Shown one piece after another: positions 8,963 through 16,137 of a stretch of DNA of 44,034 bases. A program made the position numbers and the translations under genes. The number at the start of each line of letters is the position of its first letter. The first letter of the stretch is position 1. Source of the DNA: Verrucomicrobiota bacterium (GTDB lineage Bacteria; Verrucomicrobiota; Verrucomicrobiia; Limisphaerales; SIBE01); contig JAIPJX010000022.1 in NCBI GenBank assembly GCA_021733945.1, positions 1-44,034 of the forward strand. Direction: 5' to 3'. The notes under the pieces were generated by a model that had not been told where the DNA came from, searched no databases, and saw only the letters and a program-made list of their open reading frames with translations.

Positions 8963-9157
8963 GTGCCAGCTAAAAAGAAGGCGGCTGCAAAGAAAAAAAC
9001 AGCCGCAAAAAAAACCGTAGCTAAAAAGGCGGCCCCTAAGAAGGCAGCCGCAAAAAAGGCCGCGCCTAAGAAAAAAGCAGCCCCTAAAAAGGCAGCTGTG
9101 AAAGAGGCGGCCCCTAAGAAGGCAGCGACCAAAAAAGCAGCCGCAAAAAAGAAGTAA
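8963..9157 (+). CDS. Lysine/alanine-rich histone H1-like peptide
   Basis: This 64-residue peptide consists almost entirely of Lys, Ala, Pro and Thr in repeats such as KKAAPKKAAAKKAA. It resembles the C-terminal tail of eukaryotic histone H1 and bacterial nucleoid-binding proteins of the Hc1/AlgP type, so DNA or RNA binding through charge is likely. It starts with GTG at 8963, preceded 8 nt away by a strong ribosome-binding site GGAGGT (8949-8954). A perfect terminator follows 35 nt after the stop. These signals argue strongly for a real, well-expressed gene despite its low complexity. A hydrophobic open frame on the opposite strand is a by-product of the repeats. Confidence 0.75.
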   Translation: MPAKKKAAAKKKTAAKKTVAKKAAPKKAAAKKAAPKKKAAPKKAAVKEAAPKKAATKKAAAKKK

Positions 9158-10095: not shown

Positions 10096-11481
10096 ATGAA
10101 CCGAAGAATCCTCGTTGGCCTGACCCTGCTCATCATTGTTCCCGCCCTCGTGGGGTACTTCAAATGGCGGAGTTTCAAACACCTGAAAGTCCAGGGCCGT
10201 CCGATTGTCGAATGGGCCATGGCCTTGAACGGCCCACAGGATGTTCAGCAAGCCGAACTGGTCATCCGCGAGACAGGCACCGCAGCTGTTCCGTCCCTCA
10301 TCCATGCGCTGGAAGCCCGGGATTCCCTGCTCAAGAAACCATTCCTGGCAATCGCCCCCCGCCTGCCGGACATCGTCAGCGTCCGGCTGTACCGCTGGTT
10401 GAATCCGTACGAAAAGGAACGACTCCGCCTCGGCGCAACCCGGGCGCTCGAACTCATCGGCCCGGGCGCGGAAAAGGCGATCCCCGCCCTGGGCAAGGCT
10501 CTCCGGGATCCAAGTGCCGAGATTGCCATGCACGCCGCGTTCGCGCTGGGCAACCTCGGAGCGCCAGCCGTTTCCACCCTGATCAACGGCCTTGGGGCAC
10601 CCCGCGATGAAACCCGTTTTTTTGCAATCCAGGGCCTGAGCCGGGCCGGCACCGAAGCGCGTCCCGCAATACCCGATCTGATCGGCGTCCTCAGGGGAAC
10701 AAACAGCAGGAACGCCAGGGAAGCCGCCGCGTGCCTGGGCCGGATCGGCGGGGTCGGAGCCGTGCGCGCCGCCACCGGGTTGTTGCGCAATCCGGATCTC
10801 CGAATCCAGCTCCGAGGCATTCAAAGCCTCTCCGCTCTCGGCCCCCAGGCCCGCTCAGCCGTCCCCACGCTTCTGGAATTCGCACGCACGGACGATCCGG
10901 AAGTGCGCAAAACGGTCATCGGGGCACTTGGAAGAATCGAGCCCGCAAACCCCGAAGTCGGGGCCCTGTTTATCAGCGCCCTTCAGGACAACGATCCCGA
11001 AGTGCGCGCCATGGCCGCCGAAGGTCTGGAACGGGGCGATGTCACCGAAGCAACGTCCCTCAACGCGCTGATCGAAAGCCTGAACGATCCGGACTCGGGA
11101 GTGCGCCGAACCTCCCTCCGGGTCATCGCCTCGGCCACCTCCCGGAATGCGGACCTCACTGCTGCGGGCGCGATGCCGGCTTTCGTGCAGGCGCTTGGCG
11201 ATTCCGATTTCCTGGTGCGCCTCTACGCCGCGCAGGCGCTTGCCTCCCTGGGACCCCGGGCAATGCCCGCCCTGGGCCCTCTGCAACAGGCACTGAACGA
11301 CCCCCACCCCGGAGTACAGAGCTGGGCGGCACTAGCCTTGGGCTCTCTGGGTCCGGGAGCGGAACCAGCGCGCGGCGCTTTGGAAAAACTGCTGAAGCAT
11401 CCGGACAAGGCCGTGACCCGGGCGGCCCGCACTGCATTGGAGCAGTTGAGGCCCTCCCCCGCGACGGTCCCACCCGATTAA
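10096..11481 (+). CDS. HEAT-repeat protein with N-terminal membrane anchor
   Basis: This 461-residue protein starts with a hydrophobic segment (ILVGLTLLIIVPALVGYF, residues 4-21) that could anchor it in the inner membrane. The rest is about ten tandem HEAT/PBS-lyase-type helical repeats. Recurrent forms are AIPALGKALRDPSAEIAMHA, AVPTLLEFARTDDPEVRKTV and MPALGPLQQALNDPHPGVQS. HEAT arrays are protein-interaction scaffolds. No enzymatic motif is visible and the partner is unknown. Proteins of this build are common in Verrucomicrobiota. It ends 82 nt before the aroF leader. Confidence 0.75.
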   Translation: MNRRILVGLTLLIIVPALVGYFKWRSFKHLKVQGRPIVEWAMALNGPQDVQQAELVIRETGTAAVPSLIHALEARDSLLKKPFLAIAPRLPDIVSVRLYRWLNPYEKERLRLGATRALELIGPGAEKAIPALGKALRDPSAEIAMHAAFALGNLGAPAVSTLINGLGAPRDETRFFAIQGLSRAGTEARPAIPDLIGVLRGTNSRNAREAAACLGRIGGVGAVRAATGLLRNPDLRIQLRGIQSLSALGPQARSAVPTLLEFARTDDPEVRKTVIGALGRIEPANPEVGALFISALQDNDPEVRAMAAEGLERGDVTEATSLNALIESLNDPDSGVRRTSLRVIASATSRNADLTAAGAMPAFVQALGDSDFLVRLYAAQALASLGPRAMPALGPLQQALNDPHPGVQSWAALALGSLGPGAEPARGALEKLLKHPDKAVTRAARTALEQLRPSPATVPPD

Positions 11482-11563
11482 ATCCCGTCCGCGCTCATCC
11501 CGGAAAAAGCGCTCCAGAATCTGAGGTTGACGGCGGGGAGCGGGCTGATACTTTCTCCGAAGA

Positions 11564-11650
11564 ATGAATTTGAGTGGCCCTTTTTTTAGCACCGCAGCTG
11601 GAACGGCTTATTACTTTAGCCGTTCGAACCTGCGTGGCGGGCTGCTCTAG
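11564..11650 (+). CDS. aroF leader peptide rich in Phe and Tyr codons
   Basis: This 28-codon open frame starts at ATG 11564 and stops at TAG 11648-11650. It contains Phe-Phe at 11582-11587 and Tyr-Tyr-Phe (TAT TAC TTT) at 11609-11617. The Tyr-Tyr-Phe codons fill exactly the loop of the first RNA hairpin in the leader (stem 11601-11608 with 11618-11625). The stop codon lies between the antiterminator segment and the terminator. This is the arrangement of classical aromatic amino-acid attenuation peptides such as those of pheA, where ribosome stalling at scarce charged tRNA changes the RNA fold. No clear Shine-Dalgarno motif precedes it. A weak promoter TTGACG (11527-11532) with TACTTT (11549-11554) could start the transcript only a few bases before the ATG. 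Confidence 0.65.
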   Translation: MNLSGPFFSTAAGTAYYFSRSNLRGGLL

Positions 11651-11702
11651 AGAGATCCAGAGAATAACCCGGGCCGCAGGTAACCACCTGCGGTTTTTTT
11701 TT
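11592..11702 (+). promoter_or_regulatory. Transcription attenuator of the aroF operon
   Basis: Four RNA segments can pair in two exclusive ways. Segment 1 (CGCAG, 11593-11597) pairs with CTGCG in segment 2 (11630-11634), closing a hairpin with GAACGGCT (11601-11608) and AGCCGTTC (11618-11625). Segment 2 as ACCTGCG (11628-11634) can instead pair with segment 3, CGCAGGT (11675-11681), as antiterminator. Segment 3 with segment 4, ACCTGCGG (11686-11693), forms the terminator, followed by nine T. The structure lies inside and just after a leader peptide carrying Tyr-Tyr-Phe codons in the first loop. Stalling there would release segment 2 and allow read-through into aroF; translation to the stop codon would favour termination. 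This is inferred from pairing and codon content. Confidence 0.75.
11674..11702 (+). terminator. Attenuator terminator before aroF
   Basis: CCGCAGGT (11674-11681), loop AACC, ACCTGCGG (11686-11693) and then nine T residues make a textbook intrinsic terminator. It lies 192 nt after the HEAT-repeat gene but only 30 nt before the aroF start codon. The upstream copy of ACCTGCG (11628-11634) can compete for its 5' arm. I therefore read it as the terminator of an attenuator rather than simply the end of the HEAT transcript. Confidence 0.85.
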
Positions 11703-11732
11703 GTCGAGGCGCAACGACCTCGAGATGAGATT

Positions 11733-12758
11733 ATGATTGTAGTCCTAAGACCTGATATTACGAAGAGGGCGGAGACCGCCGTGCTCAAGGAGATTCGCAA
11801 ACTGGGCTACAAGCCTCATGTCATGCGCGGCGTGGAACGTACGGTGGTGGGTGCCATTGGAGATGAACGCACGCATCATACGCTCGAAGCCCTGGCATCC
11901 TGGCCGCAGGTGGAGCAGGTCATGCCGGTTCAGAAAAAATACAAGCTCGTCAGCCGCGAGGCGCACAAGGGGAACTCCGTGGCCCGCATCAAGGGTCTGT
12001 CGGTCGGCGGCAGAAAATTCCACGTCATGGCCGGACCCTGTTCCGTGGAGAGCGAGCGTCAGCTGATGACTTCCGCACTGGCGGTGAAGAAGGCAGGGGC
12101 AACGGTCCTGCGCGGGGGCGCGTTCAAACCCCGGACCTCGCCCTACGAGTTCCAGGGACTGGGCGAAAAAGGCCTGAAACTTCTGGCCAAGGCAAGCAGG
12201 GAAACCGGCCTCCCGGTCATCACCGAACTGCTCTCCCAGGATCATGCGGAAATGGTCGCCGAATACGCGGACATCCTCCAGATCGGCACGCGGAACGCGC
12301 AGAATTTCCAGCTCCTGATCGCAGCGGCCAAAACGGGCAAACCGGTACTCCTCAAGCGCGGGCTTGCGATGAAAATCGAGGAATGGCTTCTGGCCGGCGA
12401 ATATGTTCTGGCCAACGACAATCCCAACCTCCTGTTCTGCGAACGGGGTATCCGGACGTTCGAGACCTACACCCGAAACACGCTGGATCTCTCGGCAGTG
12501 CCGATCATCAAGCAGGAATCCCACTGCCCCATCGTCATCGATCCAAGCCAGGGCTGCGGCCGGGCGGACCTGGTGACGGCAATGTGCAAGGGTGCCGTGG
12601 CCATGGGTGCCGACGCCCTTCTGGTTGAAGTGCATCCCGATCCCTCCAAGGCCTGGAGCGACGGGGCGCAGCAGTTGTCCCTGGAGGGCTTCGGCAAGCT
12701 GATGAAGGAGATCATTCCCTTTCTCGCCGCGGCCGGACGCGAACCCGCCTGGGCCTAG
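11733..12758 (+). CDS. aroF: 3-deoxy-7-phosphoheptulonate synthase (DAHP synthase, type I-beta)
   Basis: This 341-residue protein condenses phosphoenolpyruvate and erythrose 4-phosphate, the first step of aromatic amino-acid synthesis. Residues 1 to about 75 form a ferredoxin-like regulatory domain (MIVVLRPDITKRAETAVL...), the same layout as the Thermotoga-type enzyme, in which that domain gives feedback inhibition by Phe and Tyr. The catalytic barrel has AGPCSVES (100-107, metal-binding Cys103), RGGAFKPRTSPYEFQG, IGTRNAQNF, LLKRG and DPSQGCGRADLV. I start at 11733 because the in-frame extension upstream runs through the terminator. The gene follows a Phe/Tyr attenuator and heads the aromatic operon, so it appears controlled at both transcription and activity level. 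Confidence 0.95.
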   Translation: MIVVLRPDITKRAETAVLKEIRKLGYKPHVMRGVERTVVGAIGDERTHHTLEALASWPQVEQVMPVQKKYKLVSREAHKGNSVARIKGLSVGGRKFHVMAGPCSVESERQLMTSALAVKKAGATVLRGGAFKPRTSPYEFQGLGEKGLKLLAKASRETGLPVITELLSQDHAEMVAEYADILQIGTRNAQNFQLLIAAAKTGKPVLLKRGLAMKIEEWLLAGEYVLANDNPNLLFCERGIRTFETYTRNTLDLSAVPIIKQESHCPIVIDPSQGCGRADLVTAMCKGAVAMGADALLVEVHPDPSKAWSDGAQQLSLEGFGKLMKEIIPFLAAAGREPAWA

Positions 12759-12793
12759 CGGACACCCCGGCCGTGGCCTCTGCGGTGCGCGTC

Positions 12794-13729
12794 ATGAGCG
12801 AGTTGAGCCAGAGCGATCAACCGGAACAGGGTTCCCGTTCCGCCGCCGATCGGTTCAGCGACGCCGCTCTCGTGATCATCGGGCACGGATCGTCCACGAA
12901 CACCGAGTCGGCTCTGGCGGTTCGTCAACATGCAGGCGAACTTCGCCGTCGCCGCCTGTTCGGTGAGGTGCGCGAGGCGTTCTGGAAACAGGAACCCCGG
13001 TTGGGAACGGTAGCTCAGCAAACCACCCAGCCCAGGGTTTTCTTCGTGCCTCTCTTTATTTCAGAGGGTTATTTCACCGAGGAAGCCATTCCAACGGAAC
13101 TCGGTTTCCGAACCTCGGAGGACCTGACCTTTGAGCGAGTACGGAAACACGGGAATCAACTCTGGCACTACACAGGGCCGGTGGGCACGCATGAAAGCAT
13201 GACCGCCATCATTCTGGCCCGGGCCCGGAGCGTAATCGAAAAACACCCCTTTCCCCGGGCACCCAAACCGGAACAGACCGCCCTGCTGATCGCGGGGCAC
13301 GGCACGGGAAGGAACGTGAGATCGCGCAAGGCGATCGAGGATCAGGTTCTGGCCATCCGCTCCCTGGGGATGTATGCCGAAGTGCACGCCATCTTCATGG
13401 AGGAGGCACCCCGAATCGGGGACGCGTTCACCCTAACCCAGGCCCGCAATCTGGTTGTGGTGCCGTTCTTCATCAGCGACGGATTACACACGCAGGAGGA
13501 CATTCCCATGTTGCTCGGGGAACCGGAACGATTCGTGCGGGATCGGATGGCACAAAACCAACCCACCTGGCGCAACCCCACCGAACGCAAGGGGAAAATG
13601 GTCTGGTACGGTCAGAGTGTCGGGAGCGAACCGGGAATCGCCGACGTCATTCTGGAACGTGTGCGACAGGTGGCCGGGCCGGACAGGCACCCGGCGACTG
13701 GCACGGGACGGGACCTGCCGGAGGCGTGA
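12794..13729 (+). CDS. CbiX-like (sirohydrochlorin chelatase family) two-domain protein
   Basis: This roughly 311-residue protein has two chelatase-type domains. Each carries a Gly-His-Gly motif after a beta strand: LVIIGHGSSTN (His31 from the chosen start) and LLIAGHGTGRN (His169). Each domain also has a strand of the RVFFVPLFISEGYFTEEAIP / NLVVVPFFISDGLHTQEDIP type, which places the second metal-binding region. CbiX/SirB enzymes insert Co2+ or Fe2+ into sirohydrochlorin. A cobalamin or siroheme gene is not nearby, so the substrate is uncertain. I start at ATG 12794; a GTG at 12773 is an alternative. It sits in the same direction between aroF and tyrA, an unusual partner. Confidence 0.7.
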   Translation: MSELSQSDQPEQGSRSAADRFSDAALVIIGHGSSTNTESALAVRQHAGELRRRRLFGEVREAFWKQEPRLGTVAQQTTQPRVFFVPLFISEGYFTEEAIPTELGFRTSEDLTFERVRKHGNQLWHYTGPVGTHESMTAIILARARSVIEKHPFPRAPKPEQTALLIAGHGTGRNVRSRKAIEDQVLAIRSLGMYAEVHAIFMEEAPRIGDAFTLTQARNLVVVPFFISDGLHTQEDIPMLLGEPERFVRDRMAQNQPTWRNPTERKGKMVWYGQSVGSEPGIADVILERVRQVAGPDRHPATGTGRDLPEA

Positions 13730-13892
13730 GACGGTTCTGCTCCCATCCAACGCCGCTCGGGACGGTGGACCGCCGCAGACCCTGGAGTGGCGGACTTGTG
13801 GACACGCACCGTTCAACGGCCCTGGTTTGGTTCGGCAAAAGCAGCTTCGACCTTGCCCCTGAGGCTCCGGGACGCTTTAATCCCCCCATCGC

Positions 13893-14777
13893 ATGCAATG
13901 GCAAAAGGTCACAATCGTCGGGGTTGGTTTATTGGGCGGGTCCCTCGGACTCGCCCTCAGGCAACGCCGACTCGCCAGGCAGGTGGTGGGCTATGTCCGC
14001 CGCCCGGAGAGCGTGACCGCGTGCCTCGGCCGGCGTGTGGTCGATTTCGCGACGCAGGATTTGAAGGAGGCCGTGACCGGAAGCGATCTGGTGGTTTTGG
14101 CCACGCCGATCGCCCAGATGCGCACGATCGCCGAACAGATGCAGTCCGCCATCGCCCCGAACGCGCTCGTGACGGACGTTGGCAGTGTCAAAGGCATCGT
14201 GATCCAGGAACTCGAGCCGATCGTCCTCGCGGCGGGCGCCCATTTCGTCGGATCCCATCCGATGGCTGGATCGGAACAAATGGGGGTCGAAGCTTCCCGT
14301 GGCGATCTTTTTGAGAATGCAATCTGTGCGATCACACCGAACAAGAATTCACCGCCCGAAGTCGTGACGCGGCTGGAGGAGTTCTGGACCTCGCTGGGCG
14401 CGCGTCCGATCCGGATGGCCCCGGACATGCACGACGACTATGTCAGCCGTTCAAGCCATCTGCCGCATGTGATCGCGGCGGAACTGGCCAACTACGTGCT
14501 AAGCCCGGTGCATCCCAAGGAACAAGCGTTGCTGTGCGCGACCGGATTCCGGGACACCACCCGGGTGGCCTCCGGTTCCCCCGAAATGTGGCGTGACATC
14601 GCCCTGGCCAACCGGAAGAATCTGGCCCGTGTGCTGGGAGTGTTTATCGAAGACCTTCGCGAGTTTCAGATCTCGCTTGAGACCGGGGACGGAAAGGCGA
14701 TTGAGGAATTCTTCGCGGTCGCCAAACAGCGGCGGGACAACTGGCCCGGAAAGGACGCTTCGCCTTCACCGGAATAG
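13893..14777 (+). CDS. tyrA: Prephenate/arogenate dehydrogenase
   Basis: This 294-residue NAD(P)-dependent dehydrogenase converts prephenate to 4-hydroxyphenylpyruvate, or arogenate to tyrosine. The Rossmann motif is IVGVGLLGGSLG (8-19). DVGSVKG and GSHPMAGSE supply the conserved active-site region with His122. The C-terminal helical dimerisation domain contains HLPHVIAAELA. There is no C-terminal ACT domain and no chorismate mutase fusion. The gene lies 163 nt after the CbiX-like gene and 91 nt before aroA, in the aromatic cluster under the Phe/Tyr attenuator. Confidence 0.93.
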   Translation: MQWQKVTIVGVGLLGGSLGLALRQRRLARQVVGYVRRPESVTACLGRRVVDFATQDLKEAVTGSDLVVLATPIAQMRTIAEQMQSAIAPNALVTDVGSVKGIVIQELEPIVLAAGAHFVGSHPMAGSEQMGVEASRGDLFENAICAITPNKNSPPEVVTRLEEFWTSLGARPIRMAPDMHDDYVSRSSHLPHVIAAELANYVLSPVHPKEQALLCATGFRDTTRVASGSPEMWRDIALANRKNLARVLGVFIEDLREFQISLETGDGKAIEEFFAVAKQRRDNWPGKDASPSPE

Positions 14778-14868
14778 CCCCCCCGGGGTTTCGGACGACC
14801 GGATTTCCGAACCGGTCTTCCCAGGTCATCCGGCAAACTCATGAATTTGGAAACTGCGCGCCAACGAT

Positions 14869-16137
14869 ATGCTTCCGGAGCTTATTGAAATCATCCCCCT
14901 GCGGGAGCCGGTCACGGCAAGTGTGACGGTGCCCGGCTCCAAGAGCGTTACCAACCGGGCGCTGGTTCTGGCGGCGCTGGCGGACGGACCGCGGACGCTG
15001 TGCGGGGCGCTCTGGAGCGAAGATACCCAGGTCATGGTGGACGCGTTGCGAACGCTCGGGTTTTCCGTGAGCGTCGAGAACGACGCCAGCGACCCCTGCA
15101 ACCGGACCATCGTCGTGGAGGGACTGAACGGCCGGATCCCCAACTACGGAGAGGAGGCGCGGCCCCTGGAGCTTTTCGTGGGCAACGCCGGGACAGCGGC
15201 CCGGTTCCTGGCAGCACTCGTCTGCCTGGGCACGGGGGTTTACCGCCTGCACGGGGTTCCCCGCATGCACGAACGTCCCCAGGGCGCGCTGTTCCAGGCC
15301 CTGCGCGATCTCGGCTACCGGGTGGACGCCCGGGACGATCGGCTCCCCGCCACGATCCATGGCAGCGGACCAAACAGCGGCTCCTGCAGCGTGGGCATCG
15401 GACAAAGCTCGCAGTTTGCCTCCGCCCTGCTCCTATGCGCCCCCACGGGCGGATGGCGGGTCTCGATCGCGGACGAGTCCGCGGACGAAGCGCCCTACGT
15501 GAGCATGACCGAGCAGCTGATTCGAACGTTCCCACAGTCAGGCGAACGGTTTCAGATCGAGCCGGACGCATCCGGTGGCAGCTACTTTTGGGCAGCCGGC
15601 TGGTTGCTCGGCGGACCAGGCTCGATCTCGGTGCCGCATTGGCCGGAATCCGGCTGGCAGATCGACGCCCGATTTCCAAACAGCCTGCCGCTGCCGGAGA
15701 GAGTGTCCCGTCGAACCGACCTGGGAGACAGCATCATGACGGCCATTGTGCTCGCGCCCTTCGCCGAACGCTCCACCCACTTTTGTGATCTGGGCCGGTT
15801 GCGTCTCCAGGAGTGCGAACGGGTGGAGGCGCTGCGGATGGAGCTCAGTCGCTGCGGTGCCTCTGTGAAGGAGGAAGGGGACACGTTGGTGGTGGACCCG
15901 TCACCATTGCACGGTGCCGAGATTGAGACCTACCACGATCATCGCATGGCGATGTGTTTTTCAATCCTTGCATTAAAAACGCCCGGGATCAAAATCAAGA
16001 ATCCGGCGTGTGTGAAGAAGACTTTTCCCGGGTTTTATCAGAAGCTCAATGCCGCCCCGCCCCACGGGTTGGGAGCGGTGATCCTGGATGCGTCCAGCCG
16101 GGAACCGTTGACAGGCCGGAGACTGTTCGCGGATTGA
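14869..16137 (+). CDS. aroA: 3-phosphoshikimate 1-carboxyvinyltransferase (EPSP synthase)
   Basis: This 422-residue enzyme transfers the enolpyruvyl group of PEP to shikimate 3-phosphate. The N-terminal PEP/shikimate-binding motif is VPGSKSVTNRALVLAALADG with Lys25. The second is LFVGNAGTAARFLAAL, where class I and II enzymes have GNAGTA. The C-terminal motif DHRMAMCFSILAL carries the expected arginine. Both inside-out alpha/beta domains are complete and the length is normal. It is followed 38 nt later by cmk, a gene order (aroA-cmk) shared by many bacteria. Confidence 0.95.
   Translation: MLPELIEIIPLREPVTASVTVPGSKSVTNRALVLAALADGPRTLCGALWSEDTQVMVDALRTLGFSVSVENDASDPCNRTIVVEGLNGRIPNYGEEARPLELFVGNAGTAARFLAALVCLGTGVYRLHGVPRMHERPQGALFQALRDLGYRVDARDDRLPATIHGSGPNSGSCSVGIGQSSQFASALLLCAPTGGWRVSIADESADEAPYVSMTEQLIRTFPQSGERFQIEPDASGGSYFWAAGWLLGGPGSISVPHWPESGWQIDARFPNSLPLPERVSRRTDLGDSIMTAIVLAPFAERSTHFCDLGRLRLQECERVEALRMELSRCGASVKEEGDTLVVDPSPLHGAEIETYHDHRMAMCFSILALKTPGIKIKNPACVKKTFPGFYQKLNAAPPHGLGAVILDASSREPLTGRRLFAD

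Follow-up and report, generated by a model that had tools for sequence, protein, structure and literature searches.

In the attenuators of the Escherichia coli pheL-pheA and trpL-trp operons, a ribosome stalled in the leader frees segment 2 of the nascent RNA to pair with segment 3, and otherwise segment 3 pairs with segment 4 to form a terminator. Both systems control branch enzymes, not DAHP synthase, and in the trp leader the stop codon precedes segment 2. Leader families of amino-acid operons in Rfam include the Phe, Trp, His and Thr leaders. The described case closest to the locus reported here is the aroR-aroF leader of Corynebacterium glutamicum, for which the original study of the attenuator is said to be that of Neshat (2014); the C. 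glutamicum ilvBNC leader, for its part, was reportedly found by Morbach (2000) to be without a ribosome binding site. The aroR leader carries Phe-Tyr-Phe before the DAHP synthase gene aroF (PMC4046766, PMC11802643), ribosome stalling under Phe limitation raises its transcription and Tyr supply is without effect (PMC11802643); the same text mentions pheL-pheA and trpL-trp of E. coli as attenuators. Two further leaders bear on where such transcripts start. The trpL RNA of Sinorhizobium meliloti begins at the start codon of the leader peptide and is thus leaderless (PMC7298713), and the C. glutamicum ilvBNC leader is discussed as a leaderless mRNA with mutually exclusive hairpins (PMC11857589).

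In this work, we describe a putative attenuator in front of aroF in a Verrucomicrobiota genome (5.4 Mb, about 90% complete), of which a stretch of 44,034 nt, hereafter the window, was analysed. The closest named relatives are mostly records under Verrucomicrobia, Verrucomicrobiales, Limisphaerales or Pedosphaera. Like C. glutamicum aroR-aroF, the locus has an aromatic leader peptide before a DAHP synthase gene. Unlike the actinobacterial aroR leader, it belongs to Verrucomicrobiota and holds Tyr-Tyr-Phe in a hairpin loop, and most of its relatives carry Trp codons as well. It shares the four-segment logic of the E. coli pheL-pheA and trpL-trp attenuators; in contrast to the E. coli trp leader, its leader ORF spans segment 2, and the stop codon usually lies a few bases past it. 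The leader mRNA is probably leaderless, as in S. meliloti trpL, a likeness that here is predicted from promoter spacing, whereas the S. meliloti leader reads Trp only, targets trpE(G) and belongs to the Alphaproteobacteria. It also resembles C. glutamicum ilvBNC as an amino-acid gene leader that is probably leaderless and has rival hairpins; ilvBNC differs in serving branched-chain amino acids and in its three-hairpin model.

A leader frame and competing RNA segments before aroF

The elements of the predicted attenuator and the genes that follow it are collected in Table 1. The product of aroF scores over the cut-off of NF006421 (3-deoxy-7-phosphoheptulonate synthase), and, of the solved chains, 1rzm/3pg9 matches it best over the full length (E 4.3e-101). 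Its N-terminal PF18152 domain is presumably the site of feedback by Tyr and Phe.

The sequence-only reading had proposed a 28-codon leader with Phe-Phe and Tyr-Tyr-Phe codons, and every coordinate of it was borne out. The three pairing segments that it had named (CGCAG, ACCTGCG and CGCAGGT) are present base by base, and so is the terminator of segments 3 and 4 followed by nine T, the stem of which has a folding energy of -16.7 kcal/mol (z -4.0). The TAT TAC TTT codons, which had been placed in the loop of the first hairpin, make up exactly the 9-nt loop of an 8-bp stem (-11.2 kcal/mol, z -5.6). When the hairpin around this last aromatic run was compared with shuffled flanks, it stood out with z -4.3 and p 0.003; the whole leader region also folds better than its shuffles (z -3.05), one of 200 being equally good. 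The antiterminator is longer than first described, with the CGGG of segment 2 also able to pair with the CCCG of segment 3. A scan of the window against Rfam gave 0 family matches, T-box models included, and the stretch 11480-11760 returned only Thr_leader, at 14 bits (gathering 55) and E 3.5, which is below threshold.

Table 1. Features of the aroF leader region and its surroundings, in window positions
Feature	Positions	Strand	Basis and remarks
Predicted -35 element, TTGACG	11527..11532	+	TTGAC conserved among leaders
Predicted extended -10 element, TGA-TACTTT	11546..11554	+	16-nt spacer; transcription start predicted near 11561
Leader peptide ORF, 28 codons, MNLSGPFFSTAAGTAYYFSRSNLRGGLL, then stop	11564..11650	+	sequence; start codon 9 nt past the -10 element
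Phe-Phe codons TTT TTT, upstream part of the sensor	11582..11587	+	sequence; position scan still allows antitermination
Segment 1 and inner hairpin	11593..11625	+	CGCAG 11593-11597; stem 11601-11608/11618-11625
Tyr-Tyr-Phe codons TAT TAC TTT	11609..11617	+	loop of hairpin 1:2; modelled switch point
Segment 2, inside the leader ORF	11628..11641	+	ACCTGCG 11628-11634 and CGGG 11638-11641; duplex with segment 3
Segment 3	11668..11681	+	CCCG 11668-11671 and CGCAGGT 11675-11681
Predicted intrinsic terminator 3:4	11672..11702	+	stem 11672-11681/11686-11695; nine T 11694-11702
aroF, DAHP synthase with N-terminal ferredoxin-like domain	11733..12758	+	start ATG 11733; PF00793 and PF18152
Co-directional CbiX-like, tyrA and aroA genes, possible further targets	12773..16137	+	CbiX and tyrA seldom behind aroF in relatives

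Distribution of the element

Genome searches with the covariance model R1 found one significant copy in the window's own genome, at aroF, the next match having E 0.6. Across the order, the model matches 117 of 320 genomes and 61 of 118 genera. The great majority of these matches (106 of 117) sit 6-73 nt before an aroF gene found at E<=1e-100; the other 11 comprise six before a cut, gapped or masked aroF, one before an aroF start and four weak ones with other terminators. Counted together, 113 of the 117 matches precede aroF or a part of it. At one reverse-strand locus, L204, a complete attenuator precedes just the seven initial aroF codons (MIVVLKP), beyond which the sequence is unrelated; this is either an aroF remnant or an assembly join.

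Seen from the gene, aroF at E<=1e-100 is found in 149 of the 320 genomes, in 43 of them with no adjoining model match (E<=1e-4). Four of these 43 genes lie at contig edges; the upstream regions of the remaining 39 were examined, and nine of them hold a terminator and an aromatic ORF while 30 do not. In a scan of 387 genomes of the phylum, run with stricter filters that lose weak matches, R1 matched 30 at E<=0.01, namely the window and 29 weak loci (at most 33.8 bits), and none of these 29 loci, of about 1.6-3 kb each, encodes AroF. Among the aroF-like genes of other orders (the best 29 of 85 genomes), six have an ORF with three aromatic codons in four and two (L149 and L167) have a terminator-like hairpin, neither of the two being among the six. 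The element thus goes with aroF and, as far as this sample reaches, is confined to one order.

Conservation of the aromatic codons

The upstream regions of 80 named relatives, eight distinct ones from whole genomes and that of the window gave a set of 89, of which 86, the window included, reach at least 230 nt upstream of aroF and entered the codon test. A short ORF with at least three aromatic codons in four is present in 68 of these 86 regions, compared with 6 of 86 on the reverse strand and a mean of 9.0 (maximum 15) in 100 dinucleotide shuffles; triplets of six other amino acids gave 2-5 of 86. The shuffles underwent identical frame selection, which makes this the controlled test; the aromatic profiles of the leader tables used below are partly circular because the aromatic score decided which frame was taken. 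Those tables hold the 68 of 89 regions with a terminator and an aromatic cluster, the 21 left out having no stop or cluster (seven) or no terminator (14), and one further leader of the 68 was unsuitable for the duplex test, so that there n=67.

At the aromatic positions, TAT, TAC, TTT, TTC and TGG interchange among relatives, and it follows that the kind of amino acid is kept and not the base sequence. The aromatic run lies 9-11 codons from the stop codon in 54 of 67 leaders. Aromatic residues account for 366 of 1188 residues (31%) before the last nine codons, compared with 49 of 576 (8.5%) within them. The leaders of L007 and L033 differ in having Phe-Trp-Pro-Trp or Cys-Trp-Tyr-Tyr runs nearer the stop codon, and they possibly represent a sub-type that reads Trp.

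Conservation of the pairing

The duplex of segments 2 and 3 beats shuffled versions of segment 2 at p<0.05 in 50 of 67 leaders (mean z -2.6); for the window's own duplex, p is 0.060. When 22 sequences were aligned with MAFFT and no structural guide, 77.5% of cells could form the antiterminator pairs, versus 32-45% when the pairing was slid along; for A3, an alignment of 84 rows fitted to the competing structure, the figures are 70.0% and 35-43%. The covariation score of the antiterminator in the 22-sequence alignment exceeds those of all 500 shuffles, whereas the number of both-side changes was reached by 71 and that of further pair types by 121 of the 500; in the 84-row alignment, the corresponding counts were 151 and 236 of 500. 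Over the five covariation measures, three lie above all shuffles and two do not. A3 contains 10 antisense model matches, owing to the near-palindromic terminator. The terminator and hairpin 1:2 covary too, on an alignment fitted to both, and the pairs of the terminator stem form in 99.0% of the cells of A3, which was itself fitted to that structure.

A terminator-like hairpin lies in the last 100 nt before aroF in 75 of the 89 regions of the order. Hairpin 1:2, taken as at least four pairs around the last aromatic run, is found in 61 of 67 leaders and beats shuffled flanks in 28 of the 67. The four-segment attenuation logic claimed from the window sequence is thus supported by relatives, where leader frame, aromatic codons, terminator and 2:3 pairing are all conserved; the upstream alignment that had been suggested as a check showed conserved aromatic codons and, in the three measures of five given above, covarying segments.

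At four loci, L036, L040, L077 and L021, the terminator stems are altered to CGCCGCCGGC or CCCCGACG and segment 2 is altered to match, with p 0.02-0.09 for each 2:3 duplex. These are putative natural compensatory changes of the antiterminator.

A conserved predicted promoter and a probable leaderless start

A generic promoter scan found no promoter; the one given in Table 1 emerged by comparing relatives. Of 65 leaders, 62 have TTGAC at a distance of 31-40 nt upstream of their start codon, while shuffles give a mean of 0.94 and a maximum of 4. When these 62 promoters are aligned, the extended positions are T and G at frequencies of 0.77 and 0.82, and positions 1, 2 and 6 of the -10 element are T, A and T at 0.76, 0.74 and 0.76, for a consensus of TTGAC-N16-TGnTAnnnT. 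Of the 64 leaders whose start was placed by the promoter, 56 begin translation codons 6-9 nt past the -10 element. This spacing predicts that transcription begins on the leader start codon or only a few bases away from it, which makes a leaderless leader mRNA probable.

Folding models with a ribosome in place

In the ribosome model, a 28-nt footprint was masked and the nascent RNA of the 67 leaders was folded up to segment 3. A ribosome stalled on the aromatic codons left a median of 7.5 pairs between segments 2 and 3, compared with 0.06 when it stood at the stop codon and 2.1 when no ribosome was present. The corresponding values for the window were 7.9, 0 and 0, the last of which became 3.0 in a second set-up. 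Individual leaders vary: 18 of 67 stay below four nascent 2:3 pairs with a stalled ribosome, and at least four pairs form in 12 of 67 when it has reached the stop codon and in 30 of 67 in its absence.

Moving the ribosome codon by codon along the window leader gave 8-11 2:3 pairs up to the Tyr-Tyr-Phe codons and 0-1 after them. Counted back from the stop, codons -14 to -11 have the highest aromatic fraction (0.51-0.82) in the set of 67 leaders, and this peak adjoins the point beyond which antitermination is no longer permitted. Aromatic codons favour permissive positions, with 8.84 pairs versus a null maximum of 7.51 in 1000 permutations. The early codons of the window leader permit antitermination as much as its aromatic codons do, and specificity therefore rests on codon placement.

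In most leaders, and also in that of the window (2:3, 0.1 pairs; 3:4, 10.0 pairs), the terminator prevails in the full-length RNA at equilibrium despite ribosome stalling. A switch would consequently have to be kinetic and to need co-transcriptional folding. The comparison of alternative folds proposed in the sequence-only reading thus gave a divided answer: nascent-RNA models do switch, whereas equilibrium favours the terminator in most leaders even when the ribosome is stalled.

Aromatic amino acids encoded in the leaders and the place of aroF in the pathway

Before the last nine codons, all 64 leaders counted contain Phe, 56 contain Tyr and 53 contain Trp, and 49 combine the three. Because of this last number, most leaders would pool Phe, Tyr and Trp. 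Trp is absent from this part of the leader in the window and in L001, L003 and L004, which are closely related to it; the description as a Phe/Tyr leader, therefore, fits the window and does not extend to most relatives, where Trp joins in (53 of 64).

A search for type II DAHP synthase in the window's own genome, which is about 90% complete, was empty, and the sole other PF00793 gene in it is that of KDO-8-phosphate synthase. At this level of completeness, aroF is the only DAHP synthase gene found there. In the same genome, inspection of the 260 nt preceding the two chorismate-binding genes and the prephenate dehydratase (PDT) gene revealed no aromatic leader. With no second DAHP synthase found and no aromatic leaders seen there, the attenuator may be a main control point of the pathway, and it would be sensible for the sole entry enzyme to respond to the pooled end products.

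Discussion

On the comparisons above, it is very probable that a ribosome-mediated transcription attenuator switches aroF according to the supply of charged Phe-tRNA and Tyr-tRNA. Its hallmarks are present: a run of end-product codons, a predicted terminator between the leader and aroF, a conserved antiterminator and a pathway gene downstream. Transcription would start some three bases upstream of the leader's start codon, and a ribosome, loading on the leaderless RNA, would follow RNA polymerase closely. Under a shortage of charged Tyr-tRNA or Phe-tRNA, the ribosome would wait at or before 11609-11617, and segment 2, left open, could pair with segment 3 while segment 4 was still to be transcribed, allowing read-through into aroF. 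With ample supply, it would pass the aromatic codons and cover segment 2 while stopping at 11648; segments 3 and 4 could then pair, and the T run would bring transcription to an end. Without a ribosome, segment 2 would be sequestered in hairpin 1:2.

The terminator at 11672-11702 is strong, and a co-directional gene ends upstream of it at 11481. These two facts would also suit a constitutive terminator that ends transcription from this HEAT-repeat gene, the aromatic ORF being incidental. We regard this as very unlikely, given that a promoter-like pair (TTGAC in 62 of 65) lies between the HEAT-repeat gene and the terminator, that both the aromatic codons and the 2:3 pairing show conservation well beyond what chance would give, and that 113 of 117 matches place the element with aroF. 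It is likewise highly improbable that an RNA-binding protein or a small ligand, and not the ribosome, runs the switch with the T-rich loop as its binding site. The loops are indeed T-rich, with 176 TTT against 60 TTC codons in 68 leaders, and 30 of 67 leaders can form the 2:3 duplex without a ribosome. However, the interchange of TAT, TAC, TTT, TTC and TGG keeps the aromatic residue and not the bases, the spacing between the aromatic run and the stop codon is kept at 9-11 codons in 54 of 67 leaders, and there is no Rfam riboswitch or T-box match.

A reading of the whole region as protein-coding deserves hardly any credence. The frame is open from GTG 11574, and 11574-12758 could be taken for one longer AroF in which the leader region codes for an N-terminal extension; yet Pfam, solved homologues and relatives all align from residue 1 at 11733, the relatives shown have ATG or GTG at the position of 11733, and a terminator precedes aroF in 75 of 89 regions.

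Extending the ribosome-operated attenuator to the order as a whole, we incline, with some reserve, to a broader proposal. An order-wide RNA family would gate the whole aromatic pathway through one leaderless leader that pools Phe, Tyr and Trp, and the ribosome, loading on the first bases of the transcript, would decide on synthesis of the entry enzyme by its position before or past up to seven consecutive aromatic codons. The family, which seemingly originated within one order, would be the first described ribosome-mediated amino-acid attenuator of Verrucomicrobiota.

The mechanism itself would be ordinary, namely ribosome-mediated attenuation of the trp/phe type; the family is new, in that it has no Rfam match, and its occurrence in the phylum is apparently new as well. 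Our literature searches gave no report of amino-acid attenuation in Verrucomicrobiota, although the comparative surveys of 2004 and 2010 (Vitreschak; Lopatovskaya) may hold cases, and an Akkermansia paper among the matches concerned erm(B) only. The work would thus extend amino-acid attenuation to a phylum for which no report was found. The parts of most interest are the probable leaderless start and the mostly pooled sensing of aromatic amino acids. The family provides natural variation in the aromatic amino acids read with the same enzyme downstream, so that the rule by which codons become signals is directly testable. The conserved, probably leaderless start raises the question of whether a ribosome that begins at the first base is better able to keep up with RNA polymerase.

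Gene neighbourhood and possible further targets

A co-directional HEAT-repeat gene lies upstream of the leader, ending at 11481. Downstream, the gaps along the series aroF, CbiX-like gene, tyrA and aroA are 14, 163 and 91 nt. The sequence-only reading had the attenuator control aroF, tyrA and aroA. Its first target is supported by the 113 of 117 matches that precede aroF, whereas control of tyrA and aroA was not borne out as a conserved feature: just 3 of 78 relatives (L001, L049 and L074, with up to 1.5 kb examined per relative) have CbiX and tyrA behind aroF. At this locus, the co-direction of the genes and the gaps between them suggest that such control may exist.

The CbiX-like gene between aroF and tyrA (12773-13729) contains two CbiX stretches. 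Further upstream in the window, at 8963-9157, there is an ORF of 64 amino acids with Lys/Ala/Pro repeats (MPAKKKAAAKKKTAAKK...), which we take to resemble a histone H1-like basic protein.
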